A stretch of DNA of 21,826 bases, from IMG/VR virus record IMGVR_UViG_3300010885_033321, positions 1 to 21,826 of that record. One strand, given 5' to 3'. The DNA is from a virus. Of this stretch, positions 4,386 through 18,757 are shown in pieces. The notes beneath the pieces were generated by a model. That model did not search any database, was not told the DNA's origin, and saw only the letters and a list, made by a program, of their open reading frames with translations. The first letter of the stretch is position 1; every line of letters begins with the position of its first letter. The translations under genes and the position numbers were made by a program.

Positions 4386-4568
4386 ATGGGGTTTAACAAG
4401 AGATTTTTAAAAAAAGAAAACATCCTCAATCATCTTGAAAACATAATGAATTACCTTGACGCCGACGCTGTTATGTGTACGGACGAATTTTCACGCAACG
4501 TATATCGTATGTATAGTCAAGGAAAATCAAAAGAACAAATAATCCAATATATAATAGAAAACAAATGA
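4386..4568 (+). CDS. Small protein of unknown function upstream of glutamine synthetase
   Basis: A 60-aa protein (MGFNKRFLKKENILNHLENI...) predicted to be all-helical, with a basic N terminus and a C-terminal helix KSKEQIIQYIIENK. It starts 2 nt after the previous stop, and its own end overlaps the glutamine synthetase start by 4 nt (ATGA), so the genes are probably translationally coupled. No motif identifies its function. The tight coupling suggests it is made with glutamine synthetase, but not that it binds it. Confidence 0.7.
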   Translation: MGFNKRFLKKENILNHLENIMNYLDADAVMCTDEFSRNVYRMYSQGKSKEQIIQYIIENK

Positions 4569-5761
4569 AAGTTCGGTTAGAATATGTGTGGCTTGATGGA
4601 TATAAGCCTGAGCCAAATCTTAGAAGCAAAGTAAAAATTGTTAACGCAGAAACAATAGGAGCGTCAATTGAAAGTTTCCCAATGTGGAATTTTGACGGAT
4701 CATCAACAAATCAGGCAGAGACTGGTAATTCAGATCGTCTATTAAAACCGGTTAGAACTTATATGTCTGATAAATTTCCTTTAGACACAATATATGTTTT
4801 ATGTGAAGTATTAAATCCTGATGGAACACCACATGAATCAAATAAAAGATCCCAAATTGGTGAAGGGTTTGAGGACTTGTGGTTTGGATTTGAACAAGAA
4901 TACTTTATTTATGATAGAAAAAACAAATGTATTTTAGGTCATAATGAAAACAACTTGGAACCACAAGGTAAATACTATTGTGGTATTGGTGAATATGTTG
5001 CTGGAAGAGATTTTGTTGAAGAACATATGAATATGTGTTTGAACTATGGAATTGATATTACCGGAATCAACGCTGAGGTTGCATTAGGTCAATGGGAATA
5101 CCAAGTATTCTCACAAGGTAAATTAAAAGGTGGTGATGACCTTTGGATAACAAGATACTTTTTACATAAAATCTCTGAAAAATATGGATACCGAATTGAA
5201 CTTCACCCAAAACCATTAACTCACGGTGAATGGAACGGATCAGGACTACACACAAACTTCTCAACAGATACGATGAGAGATAATGGTGGACATGAGTACT
5301 TCACATCACTATTCAACGCACTTGAATCAAGACATGAGGACCACATTAAAGCTTATGGATCAGAGAATCATTTAAGACTTACGGGGAACTTTGAAACACA
5401 ATCAATAGATAAGTTTAGTTGGGGTGTATCAGATCGTGGGGCATCAATCCGTGTTCCTCAAGATACCGCAAAAGATTGGAAAGGTTATGTTGAAGACCGT
5501 AGACCAGGATCAAATGCTGACCCATATAAAATCATTAAAGAAATTGTAAAATCTTTAATTATGACAGAACAAATCTACGAAATGAAAGGTATGATGACTT
5601 CATTTGTTGATATGGATGGTCTTAGTGGTAAATATGGAACTATGTCAAATGATGAATTATTAAAAGAATATCGTGAAGAAGAATTGGTTTCAGATCTTGA
5701 ACCACAAGCCCAATCAGACTTAATCTCGGAACTTAGAAAATCAATGCAAAATGGAAAATAA
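4565..5761 (+). CDS. Glutamine synthetase, GSII (eukaryote-like) type
   Basis: This enzyme makes glutamine from glutamate, ammonia and ATP in the cytoplasm. The 398-aa protein carries the GSII signatures in order: WNFDGSST (residues 41-48), FGFEQEY with the metal-binding Glu region (107-113), INAEVALGQWEYQV (168-181), NGSGLHTN with the ATP/metal loop (224-231), ENHLRLTG (267-274), DRGASIRVP (290-298) and RRPGSNADPY (312-321). All look intact, so it is probably active. It is somewhat longer than typical GSII (about 340-370 aa), with an acidic helical tail after residue 345. It sits between small phage-like genes and overlaps both, so it is an integral operon member rather than a recent insertion. 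In a phage it would be an auxiliary metabolic gene supporting nitrogen and nucleotide synthesis. Confidence 0.95.
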   Translation: MKVRLEYVWLDGYKPEPNLRSKVKIVNAETIGASIESFPMWNFDGSSTNQAETGNSDRLLKPVRTYMSDKFPLDTIYVLCEVLNPDGTPHESNKRSQIGEGFEDLWFGFEQEYFIYDRKNKCILGHNENNLEPQGKYYCGIGEYVAGRDFVEEHMNMCLNYGIDITGINAEVALGQWEYQVFSQGKLKGGDDLWITRYFLHKISEKYGYRIELHPKPLTHGEWNGSGLHTNFSTDTMRDNGGHEYFTSLFNALESRHEDHIKAYGSENHLRLTGNFETQSIDKFSWGVSDRGASIRVPQDTAKDWKGYVEDRRPGSNADPYKIIKEIVKSLIMTEQIYEMKGMMTSFVDMDGLSGKYGTMSNDELLKEYREEELVSDLEPQAQSDLISELRKSMQNGK

Positions 5762-8822: not shown

Positions 8823-9785
8823 ATGAAAAGCAAATTATTTTTAGAAGAGGGTGAAATATCAAGAATCCTTAATATGCACAAAAAGGCAATCCAAGAACAA
8901 ATCAATGTTAACGGCGACGAAGTAGAAACTAATAAAGTCCAAATGGATGAGGAATTACGTGGTGGAAACGGTGCGGAACAAAAGGGAATTAGAATGGTCG
9001 GAGATAAAACTGAAGTGACATTAAATGCTGATGTTAGTCTTGAGGGTTCAAATGGTGGTAGTGAGTTAAAAATATTTAAAGGTGCAATATTAAAAGGTAT
9101 ACCTGGTAAATCACAACTTAAATCAGATGGTAAAATTGCGGCACAATATGTTGATACATTAACCGGAGCAGCCGGAACCTCAACAAATAATAGGGCGGTT
9201 GTGTATTATAATTGTAAATCAGGAAAACTTAGAACTGAGGGTAATACAAATGACTATTATGCGGGTATATTTGATTATTCAGTTGGGCAAAAAACATTTT
9301 ATCCTGAGATGGCATTTAAAGGAATGTTAACAGCTGTTTGTTACAATAACGCAAAGACTTCGGCGAAAGATACGGAAAATAACGCAGGTGGTGGAGGAGC
9401 CACTATAAAATCAAAATGTCCAAAACTTGAAAAGACTTATTTAGATAAGGGTTATGTGATGATTACACAAAAAAGATATCAAGAACTTGCAAATGATAAA
9501 ACAAGAGTAAGAAAATACAAATGGTGTCCTATTAGTAAAACTAATCTTTATTTCGCTAAAGTAGTTGGTGGTGGATCAGGTGGTGGAGGAAAAGTCGGTG
9601 GTGGATCAGGTGGCGGTGGATCACTACCGTTTGAGTACAATGAGGTTATGACAGCGATAAATACTAAATGTCCTGCGACTGCCGGAGGTGGTAGCTCTAC
9701 GGGTACGGGAATTGATGTTGACCTTGATTCACAAAAAGAGATACCGACACCTAAAATGCCTACGGAGGTTTATAATGGATTATAA
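8823..9785 (+). CDS. Leader-bearing Gly-rich protein, probable virion component
   Basis: The 320-aa protein starts MKSKLFLEEGEISRILNM and reaches an I-Q-E site (residues 23-25), the pattern of the packaging-type leaders in this window. The body (about 45-185) is beta-rich and Gly/Ser/Thr-rich (VTLNADVSLEG; GAILKGIPGKSQLK). A second part (about 197-246) has conserved-looking Cys residues (KCPKLEKTYLDKGYVMITQKRY; KWCPISKTNLYF). A tandem decapeptide linker, VGGGSGGGGK-VGGGSGGGGS (about 248-267), joins this to a short C-terminal part with another Cys. The architecture of flexible Gly linkers between small domains fits a structural or capsid-internal protein; no enzyme motif is seen. It shares a transcript with the peptidoglycan-binding gene that follows. 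Confidence 0.85.
   Translation: MKSKLFLEEGEISRILNMHKKAIQEQINVNGDEVETNKVQMDEELRGGNGAEQKGIRMVGDKTEVTLNADVSLEGSNGGSELKIFKGAILKGIPGKSQLKSDGKIAAQYVDTLTGAAGTSTNNRAVVYYNCKSGKLRTEGNTNDYYAGIFDYSVGQKTFYPEMAFKGMLTAVCYNNAKTSAKDTENNAGGGGATIKSKCPKLEKTYLDKGYVMITQKRYQELANDKTRVRKYKWCPISKTNLYFAKVVGGGSGGGGKVGGGSGGGGSLPFEYNEVMTAINTKCPATAGGGSSTGTGIDVDLDSQKEIPTPKMPTEVYNGL
9564..9623 (+). repeat. Tandem 30-bp repeat encoding a Gly4Ser-like linker
   Basis: Two adjacent 30-bp units (9564-9593 and 9594-9623) differ at only a few bases and encode V-GGGS-GGGG-K and V-GGGS-GGGG-S. The in-frame duplication extends the linker of the 8823 protein. Confidence 0.85.
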
Positions 9786-9804: not shown

Positions 9805-10014
9805 ATGAGCAAAATTAAAATAACACAACAACAAATGAGAAAACTACAAGAATCGCTTAACGAAAGTGTTATTGTAGAACAAACAAAAGATCAAGTGGTT
9901 GAAATTCAAAACAGATTAAATTCCTGTTTTTCGGCGGGTTTAACGGTTGATGGAATTGCTGGTAAAAATACAAGAGCTGCAATTGAAAAATTCACCGATT
10001 ATAGATTTTCTTAA
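9805..10014 (+). CDS. Leader-bearing peptidoglycan-binding-domain protein
   Basis: The real start is the ATG at 9805 (69 aa); the frame is open further upstream, but only through a GTG and the end of the previous gene. The protein begins MSKIKITQQQMRKLQESLNE, a packaging-type leader with L-Q-E (14-16) and I-V-E (23-25) as possible cleavage sites. Residues 31-66 match a PG_binding_1 domain: VVEIQNRLN ... GLTVDGIAGKNTRAAIEKF. Such domains bind cell-wall glycan. With no lytic domain attached, a role in the virion or at the wall during infection or lysis is likely. It is coupled to the 8823 gene (19 nt downstream) and followed by a terminator. Confidence 0.85.
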   Translation: MSKIKITQQQMRKLQESLNESVIVEQTKDQVVEIQNRLNSCFSAGLTVDGIAGKNTRAAIEKFTDYRFS

Positions 10015-10069: not shown

Positions 10070-10444
10070 TTAACCGATATTTGCTCCACTAACATCTTTA
10101 ATTTCAAGATCAGGGAAAAGACCATTAAAGTAATCGTACACTGCGTTCCTCAAATGTCTTGATACTATATGATAAGGAATTACTTCCTCCATTTCACGGT
10201 CAACAGAATAATCATAATATAAATCCTTAGAATTTTTTCTGTACACAAATAACGGTTGACCCTCCGAATCCATTAGGTATATTGAATTATGGGCCTCTCC
10301 CCAAGACTTAACACCTTGTTTCAACATATTAATAAACATATTTTTATACTTTGGGTATTCATCGGCATATTCGGCATCCCAACGATTTCTTTTAAAAGTT
10401 TCGCTTAATAATATGAGTTGATGTTCGTTGATTATAATTTTCAT
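10070..10444 (-). CDS. Leader-bearing small protein, unknown function
   Basis: A 124-aa protein starting MKIIINEHQLILLSETFKRN. The leader closely parallels that of the 11555 gene (MKNILITENQLKFISEAL), with L-S-E at 13-15 as the candidate cleavage site. The remaining roughly 110 residues form a mixed alpha/beta domain (NSIYLMDSEGQPLFVYRKNS; IPYHIVSRHLRNAVYDYFNGLF) that I do not recognise. It is the only leader-bearing gene on the minus strand. It is divergent from the kinase gene, from which it is separated by a 41-bp promoter region. Confidence 0.8.
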   Translation of the reverse strand: MKIIINEHQLILLSETFKRNRWDAEYADEYPKYKNMFINMLKQGVKSWGEAHNSIYLMDSEGQPLFVYRKNSKDLYYDYSVDREMEEVIPYHIVSRHLRNAVYDYFNGLFPDLEIKDVSGANIG

Positions 10445-10485: not shown

Positions 10486-10875
10486 ATGGAAAAAATGATA
10501 TATTTAGTTAGAGGAATACCGGGAAGTGGTAAATCTACATTTGCAAAACAATTAACCCCAAATGTATTTGAAGCTGACCATTATTTTTATGATAATGACG
10601 ATAACTACAATTTTATTGCGTCTGAAATAAAAGAGGCTCATAAAGAGTGTCAACAATATGTTGGATATGCTATGGAGTCAAACACACCAAAAATTGCAGT
10701 ATCAAACACATTCACACAAGAGTGGGAACTTCAACCATATTATGAATTGGCAATTAAGTATGGTTATTACGTGACATCTATTATTGTGGAAAATAGACAT
10801 GGTAGTGTAAACGAACACGGAGTCCCTGAGGACAAAATTGAGATTATGAAAAATAGATTTGAAATAAAATTATAA
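10486..10875 (+). CDS. P-loop kinase, polynucleotide-kinase/N4BP2-like
   Basis: The 129-aa protein has a Walker A loop GIPGSGKST (residues 10-18), a DxD/E-type segment EAD (29-31) and a phosphate-sensor region NTFT (74-77). The C-terminal signature HGVPEDKIEIMKNRFE resembles the lid of 5'-polynucleotide-kinase-like and N4BP2L1-like proteins. The likely reaction is ATP-dependent phosphorylation of a 5'-OH end of RNA or DNA, although small P-loop kinases of this class can have other substrates. It lacks the C-terminal phosphatase domain of T4 Pnkp. That gap may be filled by the metallophosphoesterase gene that starts within its stop codon (shared TAATG). The pairing suggests an end-healing module. 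Confidence 0.85.
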   Translation: MEKMIYLVRGIPGSGKSTFAKQLTPNVFEADHYFYDNDDNYNFIASEIKEAHKECQQYVGYAMESNTPKIAVSNTFTQEWELQPYYELAIKYGYYVTSIIVENRHGSVNEHGVPEDKIEIMKNRFEIKL

Positions 10876-11528
10876 TGAAATTTGATAAAATATTAACTAG
10901 TGGTGTTGTTTGGATAACTTCAGACACACACTACAACCATAAAAACATATGTAGAGGTGTTACTAATTGGAGAACAAAAGATGGTGATGTTCCTGATTGG
11001 AGTACACGAGACTTTCCAACATTGGATGTGATGAACTCTGCATTGGTAGATAATATCAACTCAAAAGTTGGTCAGGATGATACCTTAATTATGTTGGGTG
11101 ATGTATCGTTTGGTGGATTTGAAAACATTGGAATTTTCTTGAACAGACTGGTATGTAAAAACATTCACTTGGTTCTTGGAAATCACGATCACCACATTAG
11201 AAACAACAGAGATAACATCAAAGATATGTTCTTATCTGTTAGTGATTACTTACAGGTTAATGTTGTTGGTGCTGACTTTGTGATGACTCACTACCCATTT
11301 GAAAGTTGGAATGGTCTTAACAAAGGTGTTATTCACCTTCACGGACACGTTCACTTACCTATGAATAGAAAGTGGGGTAAAGGAAAACGTTTGGATGTTG
11401 GTGTGGACGGTAATAACTTATATCCGTATAGTTTAACAGAGATTGTTCACATGATGGATAAACGAGAGATTGCGTCTCAAATGGATGACGACCATCATTT
11501 AGATGATATAGATGGAGTTGTAGGTTAA
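10875..11528 (+). CDS. Calcineurin-like metallophosphoesterase
   Basis: The 217-aa protein has all metal-binding motifs of the calcineurin-like family: D-x-H (D17, H19 in SDTHYNH), GD at 75-76 (MLGDVSFGG), GNHD (102-105), H139 (THYPFE) and GHVH (157-160). It has no signal peptide, so it is cytoplasmic. Related small phosphoesterases hydrolyse phosphomonoesters or diesters, including 2',3'-cyclic phosphates and nucleotide messengers. The exact substrate is not visible. Its ATG overlaps the stop of the kinase gene, implying coupled translation and a shared pathway, most likely processing of broken RNA ends. The acidic His-Asp-rich tail (MDDDHHLDDID) is not part of the usual domain. Confidence 0.92.
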   Translation: MKFDKILTSGVVWITSDTHYNHKNICRGVTNWRTKDGDVPDWSTRDFPTLDVMNSALVDNINSKVGQDDTLIMLGDVSFGGFENIGIFLNRLVCKNIHLVLGNHDHHIRNNRDNIKDMFLSVSDYLQVNVVGADFVMTHYPFESWNGLNKGVIHLHGHVHLPMNRKWGKGKRLDVGVDGNNLYPYSLTEIVHMMDKREIASQMDDDHHLDDIDGVVG

Positions 11529-11554: not shown

Positions 11555-12805
11555 ATGAAAAATATTCTTATTACCGAAAATCAATTAAAGTTTATTAGTG
11601 AAGCCTTAGGGGTCCCTAATACTGTCTTGGATGCTGCTCAAATATTATATGATTTAGTTGAACGAGACATAAAATCAATAAACACTGTTGAAGATAAATA
11701 TAATTTTGAGGGTGATTTTGATTTTGTGTTGGGGGATAAGAAAAAAATCAAAATTGATTCTTACGAACTTGAAGTAGAAATAGAAAAAATAGAAGGTCGC
11801 GGAGATGGAGTGTTAGATATCATGTCAATGGGAATGGGTGCAGGGTTTTCATTTAATAGAGATGTCTACATGAAAGAAACTGAAACATCAACAACTTTGG
11901 AATTAACAATAACTTTCGCTGTTGGTGAAAATTGGGAACCTTCAGGGCTTATTGAAAAAATGGAAGAAGACAAAGATGCTCAAATTGCGTCTTTGGCTCA
12001 CGAGATAAAACACAAATACGATAAACAATCCAAAAAGTTCGGTTTGATTGGTCCTGACGCAACATATCAAGCCACTCAAAGAAGAGGTAGTTTAGGTATA
12101 CCTGCGTTAGATAGAGTTTTCTTTAGGTACTTGTATTACATACATGGGGTTGAAAATCTTGTTAGACCTGTTGAGGTTGCATCTTCAATGAGAAGTAAAA
12201 ATATTACAAAATCACAATTTTTAAATTTTTTACAAAACAATAGAGTGTTTAAAGAATTAGTTGATATCAAGAATTTTACATTTGAAGATTTTATCAATCA
12301 ATTGAAAGAAAATGAAGATAGGTTGGATGCTCTTATTGAATATATAGATGAAGATCCGTCAAACATGACTTTAGATGAAAAAATAAATAGAGTGTTGGAA
12401 GTTGCTTACATTGACTTGGTTAATAACAGAATGGAAATTTTTGTTCAAATGACCGACCATCATATGGATGATATGTTAAAATTTGGAATGCAACTTGGGG
12501 TTTTACCACCACACTTGGAAGATAAAGTTAAAGAATTAGAAAAAACAGATGAGGTTAGAAAAAAATTCTTATCGTATGTTATGAAATATGAAAAGAACCC
12601 AACCAAATTTTTTGAGGATGAGATAGAAAACTTCCAATATATTGCAAACAAAATGTTAAAGAAAATATCTAAATTATATGCCATGGCAAAAGATGATAAT
12701 CAACCTGTTAGTGAATCAATTATCAATTGGGAACTACACCAAAAACTAATGGAAAAAAAATACGGTAAAAGAAAAATAGAAACCGAATTTAAATTCAAAA
12801 AATAG
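11555..12805 (+). CDS. Leader-bearing protein with an HExxH motif, putative metalloprotease
   Basis: The 416-aa protein starts with the packaging-type leader MKNILITENQLKFISEAL (candidate site I-S-E at 14-16). After a beta-rich region (about 50-125), residues 145-155 read ASLAHEIKHKY. This is a hydrophobic helix containing HExxH (H149, E150, H153), the zinc-binding signature of metalloproteases. A glutamate in NLVRPVEVAS (E207), about 54 residues later on a predicted helix, is a candidate third zinc ligand. The C-terminal half is helical and charged. If active, it would be a protease packaged with or matured inside the virion, acting on prohead or host proteins; this is inference. It is transcribed alone, 26 nt after the phosphoesterase gene. 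Confidence 0.8.
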   Translation: MKNILITENQLKFISEALGVPNTVLDAAQILYDLVERDIKSINTVEDKYNFEGDFDFVLGDKKKIKIDSYELEVEIEKIEGRGDGVLDIMSMGMGAGFSFNRDVYMKETETSTTLELTITFAVGENWEPSGLIEKMEEDKDAQIASLAHEIKHKYDKQSKKFGLIGPDATYQATQRRGSLGIPALDRVFFRYLYYIHGVENLVRPVEVASSMRSKNITKSQFLNFLQNNRVFKELVDIKNFTFEDFINQLKENEDRLDALIEYIDEDPSNMTLDEKINRVLEVAYIDLVNNRMEIFVQMTDHHMDDMLKFGMQLGVLPPHLEDKVKELEKTDEVRKKFLSYVMKYEKNPTKFFEDEIENFQYIANKMLKKISKLYAMAKDDNQPVSESIINWELHQKLMEKKYGKRKIETEFKFKK

Positions 12806-18166: not shown

Positions 18167-18757
18167 ATGAAAAAAGTTGTAAGACTGACCGAGTCTGAAT
18201 TAGTTAGAATGGTTAGAAAAATAGTTAAAGAAAACGAAGAAGAATGGATTGATACCGCTTCTGATATGGAAGGGGAGTCTGATTATGGTGATATGCATGT
18301 AGAAGAAAAGGCAATGAATGATGTCGCTGACATAACATCATCATTAAGTCATGGTGAAAAACATTTGTTAAAGAATTATTTGAAAAATGTTGATCCAGAA
18401 GACTTTAAAGATATGGTAAGAGATGAGATTGAAGCAAGTGAAGAAATGGGTGCAATTACCGAAGAAGATGCTGATGATATTGGAATGAGTGATGAGGAAT
18501 TTCACATTAGAAAAATTATTGATAAAATCATTGGTAAAGTTGGAGTTGGAACTACTTTAGGTATTATTCCGGCAATGATGTTTGTTAGTGGTGGTATGGC
18601 TGTTGGCCTTGGTTTAACTGCTTTGGCAGCTCATTTATTGAGAGATGCTGCTTGGTATAAGAAAGAAGATAGTAAAGGTGCTATGCCAGGGTCAGGTATT
18701 AAAGGTGGCGGAATTTATGATAAAGCCGCAGCGAAAGCAAGAAAAGAATATTACTAA
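18167..18757 (+). CDS. Leader-bearing acidic protein with a hydrophobic segment
   Basis: A 196-aa protein starting at the ATG at 18167; an upstream in-frame ATG at 18098 is cut off by the terminator. It begins MKKVVRLTESELVRMVRK, a packaging-type leader with V-K-E (20-22) as candidate cleavage site. I recall near-identical starts (MKKVVRLTESDLVRIVK-type) on many proteins of uncultured Bacteroidota phages. Residues 25-115 are highly acidic. A hydrophobic, Gly/Ala-rich stretch at about 125-158 (GTTLGIIPAMMFVSGGMAVG) could be one or two membrane segments. The tail is Gly/Lys/Ala-rich. A virion-internal or membrane-interacting protein, delivered on infection, is plausible but unproven. Confidence 0.82.
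   Translation: MKKVVRLTESELVRMVRKIVKENEEEWIDTASDMEGESDYGDMHVEEKAMNDVADITSSLSHGEKHLLKNYLKNVDPEDFKDMVRDEIEASEEMGAITEEDADDIGMSDEEFHIRKIIDKIIGKVGVGTTLGIIPAMMFVSGGMAVGLGLTALAAHLLRDAAWYKKEDSKGAMPGSGIKGGGIYDKAAAKARKEYY

Follow-up and report, generated by a model that had tools for sequence, protein, structure and literature searches.

A leader-bearing HExxH protein of very large phages, a candidate packaged zincin-type metalloprotease

The HExxH gene and its family

The window, that is the whole 21,826-nucleotide stretch of viral DNA analysed here, derives from an uncultured, probably very large phage. At 11555-12805 on the plus strand it carries an open reading frame with an ATG start that encodes a 416-aa protein, which has a 16-residue N-terminal leader (11555..11602, plus strand) and the HExxH motif HEIKH at residues 149-153 (11999..12013, plus strand). 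The gene, the motif and a glutamate (E207) within PVEV lie where the preliminary description of this DNA had placed them. Pfam, NCBIfam and PHROG do not assign the protein to a family. A search of IMG/VR with the single protein returned 72 relative loci, and a search with an alignment returned 172 relatives, the best 80 of which were used. All known relatives come from phage records. A tblastn search of 50,697 phage records with the window protein gave no match at E<=1, and the protein of one relative (L152) gave two matches at chance level in the phage collection. No relative was found among the 84,980 bacterial and archaeal species scanned. A bacterial origin of the family was rejected, as 588 stretches of bacterial contigs fit the search pattern and 0 of them encode a relative.

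Residues H149, E150, K152, H153, Y155, D156 and K157 are identical in 72/72 members of an alignment of 73 sequences, one of which is a C-terminal fragment, and E200 (12152..12154, plus strand), R204 and E207 (12173..12175, plus strand) are identical in 69/69. When identical sequences and fragments are left out, each of these residues is found in 52/52. H149, E150 and H153, whose conservation had been put forward as a check on the earlier reading, are therefore invariant in both sets, and the HExxH motif of this protein is not due to chance. Two records of near-complete size, G1 (272,576 bp) and G2 (291,867 bp), contain the family. The C-terminal tail (residues 385-410; 12707..12784, plus strand) has many invariant alignment columns and ranks with the best-conserved regions of the family, although its pLDDT in the structural model is partly <50; it was seen in none of the other proteins that G1, G2 and the window encode.

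Two upstream neighbours, at 10875-11528 and 10486-10875, lie near the gene in 43 and 41 of 51 loci, respectively. The 3' end of the HExxH gene in one relative is overlapped by a lytic transglycosylase-like ORF (L119:4184-4591, plus strand; DPBB_1 E 1e-15), after which comes an 825-aa protein (L119:4734-7211, plus strand) with a Por_Secre_tail match (E 3e-7); similar ORFs are present in other relatives. This sorting tail belongs to a secretion system and is known from Bacteroidota. The 825-aa protein may be a phage product that serves as substrate for the secretion system of the host, and we infer that the host of these phages belongs to the Bacteroidota. The window also has a glutamine synthetase-like gene at 4565-5761 (plus strand; Gln-synt_C E 4e-20).

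The zinc site and the predicted fold

An AlphaFold2 model built from 35 sequences (mean pLDDT 80.7, pTM 0.67) predicts a sheet at residues 48-123, a helix at 140-159 that carries the HExxH motif, as the preliminary description had proposed, and a helical C-terminal region; residues 1-20 are poorly ordered (block means 43 and 58). E200, in the segment ENLVR, is placed in a short helix (199-203) and E207 in a helix at 205-215 (pLDDT about 65-67). A zincin, whose core is described in PMC5512222, would be expected to have the modelled order of sheet, HExxH helix and later Glu-bearing helix, but no PDB structure matched the model.

Distant relatives in huge phages help to choose between the two glutamates. 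In the uncultured phage LR745206 (634,780 bp) the family profile matches a homologue of 22% identity (E 3e-5). Once that sequence is added, the profile also matches LR756502 (E 1.7e-4) and, more weakly, LR756501 (E 0.02), and a probable homologue in LR756504 was matched by tblastn at E 0.03. All four proteins have HELxHxY, and L/I-N-E followed by xxG. The alignment of six proteins has ten invariant columns, including the leader Glu, the Gly three residues on and the H, E, H and Y of HExxHxY, and is poor elsewhere. No relative of the LR745206 protein was found in IMG/VR. Without gaps, the stretch from R191 to R204 of the window protein can be set against R/K-x-x-Y-x5-E-x-x-A-R/K in LR745206 and LR756504; E200 then pairs with the Glu of EINAR and EIGAK, and position 207 is Gln in both. 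All four huge-phage proteins, when aligned with one another, have the Glu that pairs with E200. A profile comparison that included LR745206 gave the same pairing of E200 (probability 96.1), while the three other huge-phage proteins without LR745206 matched around HExxH only (probability 6.4), so that LR756502, LR756501 and LR756504 are probable rather than certain relatives. The preliminary description had proposed E207 as the third zinc ligand. Since E200 is equally invariant within the family (52/52) and is kept in LR745206 and LR756504, where position 207 is Gln, E207 was set aside and E200 is probably the better candidate.

Comparisons with known folds gave little. Foldseek against the PDB found no structure matching the 416-aa model and no known zincin fold, and VIA-align against the PDB reached a Z of at most 5.2 with the full model and 3.9 with the domain, with no zincin among the matches listed, a result that excludes nothing. 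The domain modelled alone gave a poorer model and no PDB match, and sequence profiles gave no meaningful match to the PDB. Four uncultured-phage proteins were matched in BFVD at probability 1.00, together with a weak match to a zincin protease that Bacillus phage AR9 encodes (E 0.046, probability 0.12). A weak likeness to the M76 (Atp23) peptidases extends over ~40 residues around the HExxHxY(D) stretch in 2/48 members, with a best score of 14.5 bits against a curated Pfam cut-off of 25.2. Membership in M76 or M13 was rejected, because the scores are far under the cut-off or reach no better than E 0.03-0.05, in 2/48 and 3/48 members. Judging by its conserved residues, the 416-aa protein is most likely a zincin-type metalloprotease that would bind zinc and be active.

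The leader and its cleavage motif

The leader of the window protein, which we call type A, ends in F-I-S-E. I/L-x-E occupies residues 14-16 in 52/52 unique relatives; the residue after it is A in 50, with a single case each of V and I. According to PMC9026906, the prohead protease gp21 of T4 cleaves after L/I-X-E and ten residues of the T4 capsid-targeting sequence (CTS) are enough for packaging; the IP-type sequence is described in a review (PMC9958956) as not conserved in other core proteins. Motif conservation, the leader profile and the gp21 motif together lead us to predict a prohead-protease cut after E16.

A profile made from the family's first 20 residues only was run on 722 proteins (329 from G1, 354 from G2 and 39 from the window). 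It gave 34 matches at E<=1, namely three family members and 31 other proteins, all within the first 44 residues, which bears out the leader seen in the preliminary description. In the few matches that start off the called Met, another in-frame start is present. A regular expression for type A found leaders in 17/329 genes of G1 and 19/354 of G2 (shuffle means 1.1, maxima 6 and 5); the leader expressions were made by eye on these same two genomes, so the exact counts are soft. Flavobacterium phage immuto (160 kb) has type A leaders in 2/223 genes, both doubtful. An x-E follows the type A core in 25/39 N-termini, compared with 21/245 internal look-alikes and 1875/18662 random positions (10%), and is missing from the expected place in the other 14/39. 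A DNA pattern encoding MKIIITExQ was found 36 times, in 12/13 records, and 0 times in the reversed control. A repeat at the level of DNA was rejected, because the 36 copies differ synonymously in their codons. In the literature on such leaders and packaged proteases we found no description of this family or its leader.

The leader is an exchangeable module on unrelated proteins. The leader of a DHH-like protein is of type A in one of G1 and G2 but type B-like in the other. Two further proteins are encoded by a single gene in one genome and by two genes in the other, where each piece has its own leader. Since leaders are swapped between orthologues and duplicated at gene splits, they behave as modules. 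There are 25 recognised leader-bearing cargo proteins in G1 and 34 in G2. The leader-bearing proteins found in these phages and their relatives include a lysozyme with LysM (G2 257849-258772), the DHH-like protein, a LysM protein and sigma-70-type factors.

HExxH proteins make up 11/656 of the proteins in G1 and G2 (shuffle mean 3.3, maximum 9 in 300). Six of these 11 have a leader, compared with 53/645 other proteins (Fisher p 1.3e-4, a value that overstates independence because the six fall into three apparently unrelated groups). Among the five HExxH proteins with no recognised leader, that at G1 54050-56422 is, judged by eye, probably no zincin at all. Type B or D leaders are found on the HExxH proteins G001:241346-241993, G002:244713-246308, G002:236104-237225 and G002:239720-240787, all on the minus strand. 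The first two of these have a common C-terminal HExxH domain, which in G2 comes after ~330 extra residues. Two other leader-tagged HExxH proteins have relatives at 4 and 1 loci, with the queries' own records counted.

The window itself has four more genes of interest in this respect. An unrelated 124-aa protein (10070..10444, minus strand) was detected by the leader profile; its type A leader ends in LLSE and its G1 orthologue has the same leader. A small peptidoglycan-binding protein (9805..10014, plus strand; PG_binding_1 E 1.6e-5), taken to start at 9805, has the N-terminus MSKIKITQQQMRKLQESLNE, which is leader-like by eye, and its relative L122:2514-2723 has a clearer leader. The protein at 18167..18757 (plus strand) has a type E leader, MKKVVRLTESELVRMVRKIVKE, and that at 8823..9785 (plus strand) has a type C-like leader, assigned by eye only, with related N-termini elsewhere.

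Among the sigma-70-type factors, L135:1893-2909 (minus strand; Sigma70_r4_2 E 8e-15, Sigma70_r2 E 3.6e-12) starts with a type A leader, and related ORFs are present in L039, L057, L058, L136, L137 and L143. Several of the relatives have L/I-x-E and then G-F/I-x-F-D directly before the sigma domain, and lie near the HExxH gene. The leader-tagged factors are candidate packaged, injected sigma factors.

Many genes in the stretches of LR745206 and LR756502 that we examined (L220-L239), from phages of ~635 kb, begin with MKYLKxF/Y..NE or MxKYxxFINE, apparently another leader class. A first leader expression for huge phages was barely above shuffles, at 39/281 (mean 20), 25/192 (mean 17) and 15/132 (mean 9), and was therefore replaced by a narrower one. 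This MK[Y/H]LK-like pattern, picked after viewing the data, fits 98/605 N-termini in the stretches of two records (shuffle mean 5.6, maximum 13).

Head genes of related phages

The window, a 21.8-kb fragment, contains no head genes. G1 and G2 both encode a gp23-type capsid protein, and they are the two records among the ten searched in which a gp21-type prohead protease scores above the Pfam cut-off; the remaining eight, of 66-153 kb, are probably fragments. In the huge phages a gp21-type protease gave a sub-threshold match only, in 3/4 searched. The capsid protein is nearest to those of an uncultured huge phage, Microcystis phage Mel-JY01 and a Flavobacterium phage. Its N-terminal region reads FLINE/ASS in G1 and HLINE/AAS in G2, where the slash marks the putative cut, and three phages with related capsid proteins have IVSE/A, LISE/A and LLKE/A at the matching region. 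By analogy with the gp21 motif, LINE/A, IVSE/A, LISE/A and LLKE/A may well be cleavage sites. The HExxH family was not found in these three phages.

Packaging and injection

The best reading, and one that we hold to be fairly probable, is that the protein is a zincin-type enzyme packaged by means of a T4-style leader and injected into the host. The 16-residue leader would carry the protein into the prohead core, much as the T4 capsid-targeting sequence does, and a gp21-type prohead protease would cleave after E16 to give the mature N-terminus ALGVP. The mature enzyme would consist of a beta-sheet, the HExxH helix, with zinc held by H149, H153 and probably E200, and the helical C-terminal region. 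On ejection into a Bacteroidota host, together with the DNA, it may early in infection cut either a target of the host or a phage protein injected alongside it. The preliminary description had already suggested a packaged metalloprotease. The conserved zincin-type motif, the modular leader with a gp21 motif, and the protease and capsid site of related phages speak for that suggestion, while its choice of E207 has been given up.

The same leader and gp21-type site would also put into the prohead core a second head-maturation protease, one that helps gp21 to trim head or internal proteins and has no role in the new host, and such a role has been proposed in a review (PMC7824862) for the zincin-like peptidase of group 1 jumbo phages. 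We consider this unlikely, as the related phages already encode a gp21-type protease, and the leader is common to many unrelated cargo-like proteins such as the lysozyme and the sigma factors. Moreover, the HExxH gene and the head module are 110-160 kb apart in G1 and G2, and this fits ejected cargo better than an assembly factor. The protein could also be packaged and yet not be a protease, its HExxH helix binding a metal structurally or serving another kind of metal hydrolase, in keeping with the lack of a known zincin fold and of a Pfam peptidase match above cut-off. The catalytic Glu, E150, is invariant in 52/52 members and kept in all four huge-phage relatives, and a structural site would not need it, so we regard this second alternative as quite improbable. 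Least probable of all is that the leader directs proteins elsewhere in the infected cell, such as to the membrane or a replication site, with the x-E incidental: leaders of types A-E are indeed strongly unlike in sequence, but they converge on L/I-x-E (counted for type A), which is the gp21 motif and also occurs in the capsid protein of the same phages, and genes with type B leaders flank the capsid gene, two in G1 and two in G2 by eye.

Beyond the packaged and injected zincin itself, it is conceivable, though we put slightly more weight on doubt than on belief, that protein injection is a general programme of very large T4-like phages and of huge phages, with the leader-tagged zincin, found in phages of ~270 to 735 kb, among its oldest cargoes. 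Such a programme would involve tens of genes per genome, and about 1/6 of the genes in the sampled huge-phage stretches, all with exchangeable leaders whose end is a prohead-protease site. The zincin would then travel with other zincin-like proteins, a lysozyme and sigma factors, the last of which, once packaged, would reprogramme the host at once. For the largely open question of what large phages inject and how the injected proteins act in the first minutes, a leader that can be read and has a known cleavage motif would allow the injected set to be listed from sequence alone. The zincin offers a concrete enzyme for such work, with a predicted mature N-terminus and predicted active-site residues.

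Comparison with known systems

On this reading the protein combines two known kinds, the CTS-tagged internal proteins of T4 and the injected zincin-like domains of the N4 virion RNA polymerase and polyvalent proteins. Like the internal proteins and Alt of T4, which have a CTS and are cut by gp21, unrelated proteins here have a short N-terminal leader that ends in L/I-x-E, and the related genomes encode a gp21-type protease and a gp23-type capsid protein. Unlike in T4, there are many more cargoes and several unlike leader types, and the likeness considered here is that of the position and ending of the leader.

The preliminary description knew of no well-described phage system of this type, but published accounts include zincin-like cases in the N4 polymerase, in injected polyvalent proteins and in group 1 jumbo phages. 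PMC12633501 and PMC5512222 describe a zincin-like HExxH domain in the N4 virion RNA polymerase, which is ejected, so that an HExxH domain is delivered from the virion there as is proposed here. That domain is part of a 3,500-residue polymerase, whereas the present protein is a stand-alone one of 416 aa with a removable leader, and no sequence relation was detected between them. PMC5512222 also presents zincin-like metallopeptidases of polyvalent proteins as predicted to be injected with the DNA of the parasite; polyvalent proteins are multi-domain polypeptides, whereas Pfam recognises no domain in the 416-aa protein and no second domain is apparent. The zincin-like peptidase of group 1 (phiKZ-like) jumbo phages and the SprT-like peptidases of others, as described in PMC7824862, are likewise zincin-type enzymes of large phages; they are likened here by description, and no sequence link was found.

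Two further HExxH proteins of related or comparable phages may be mentioned. In a 714-aa protein of G1 (G001:124007-126151, plus strand), which has no recognised leader, a superoxide dismutase of the iron/manganese type (E 1e-41) accompanies an N-terminal HEWVH..NEDEANAF stretch. Flavobacterium phage immuto gp088, annotated as NadR (NC_055915.1 107131-109854; L190:7131-9854), has HExxH motifs in SHEMIHH and RHEIEH.
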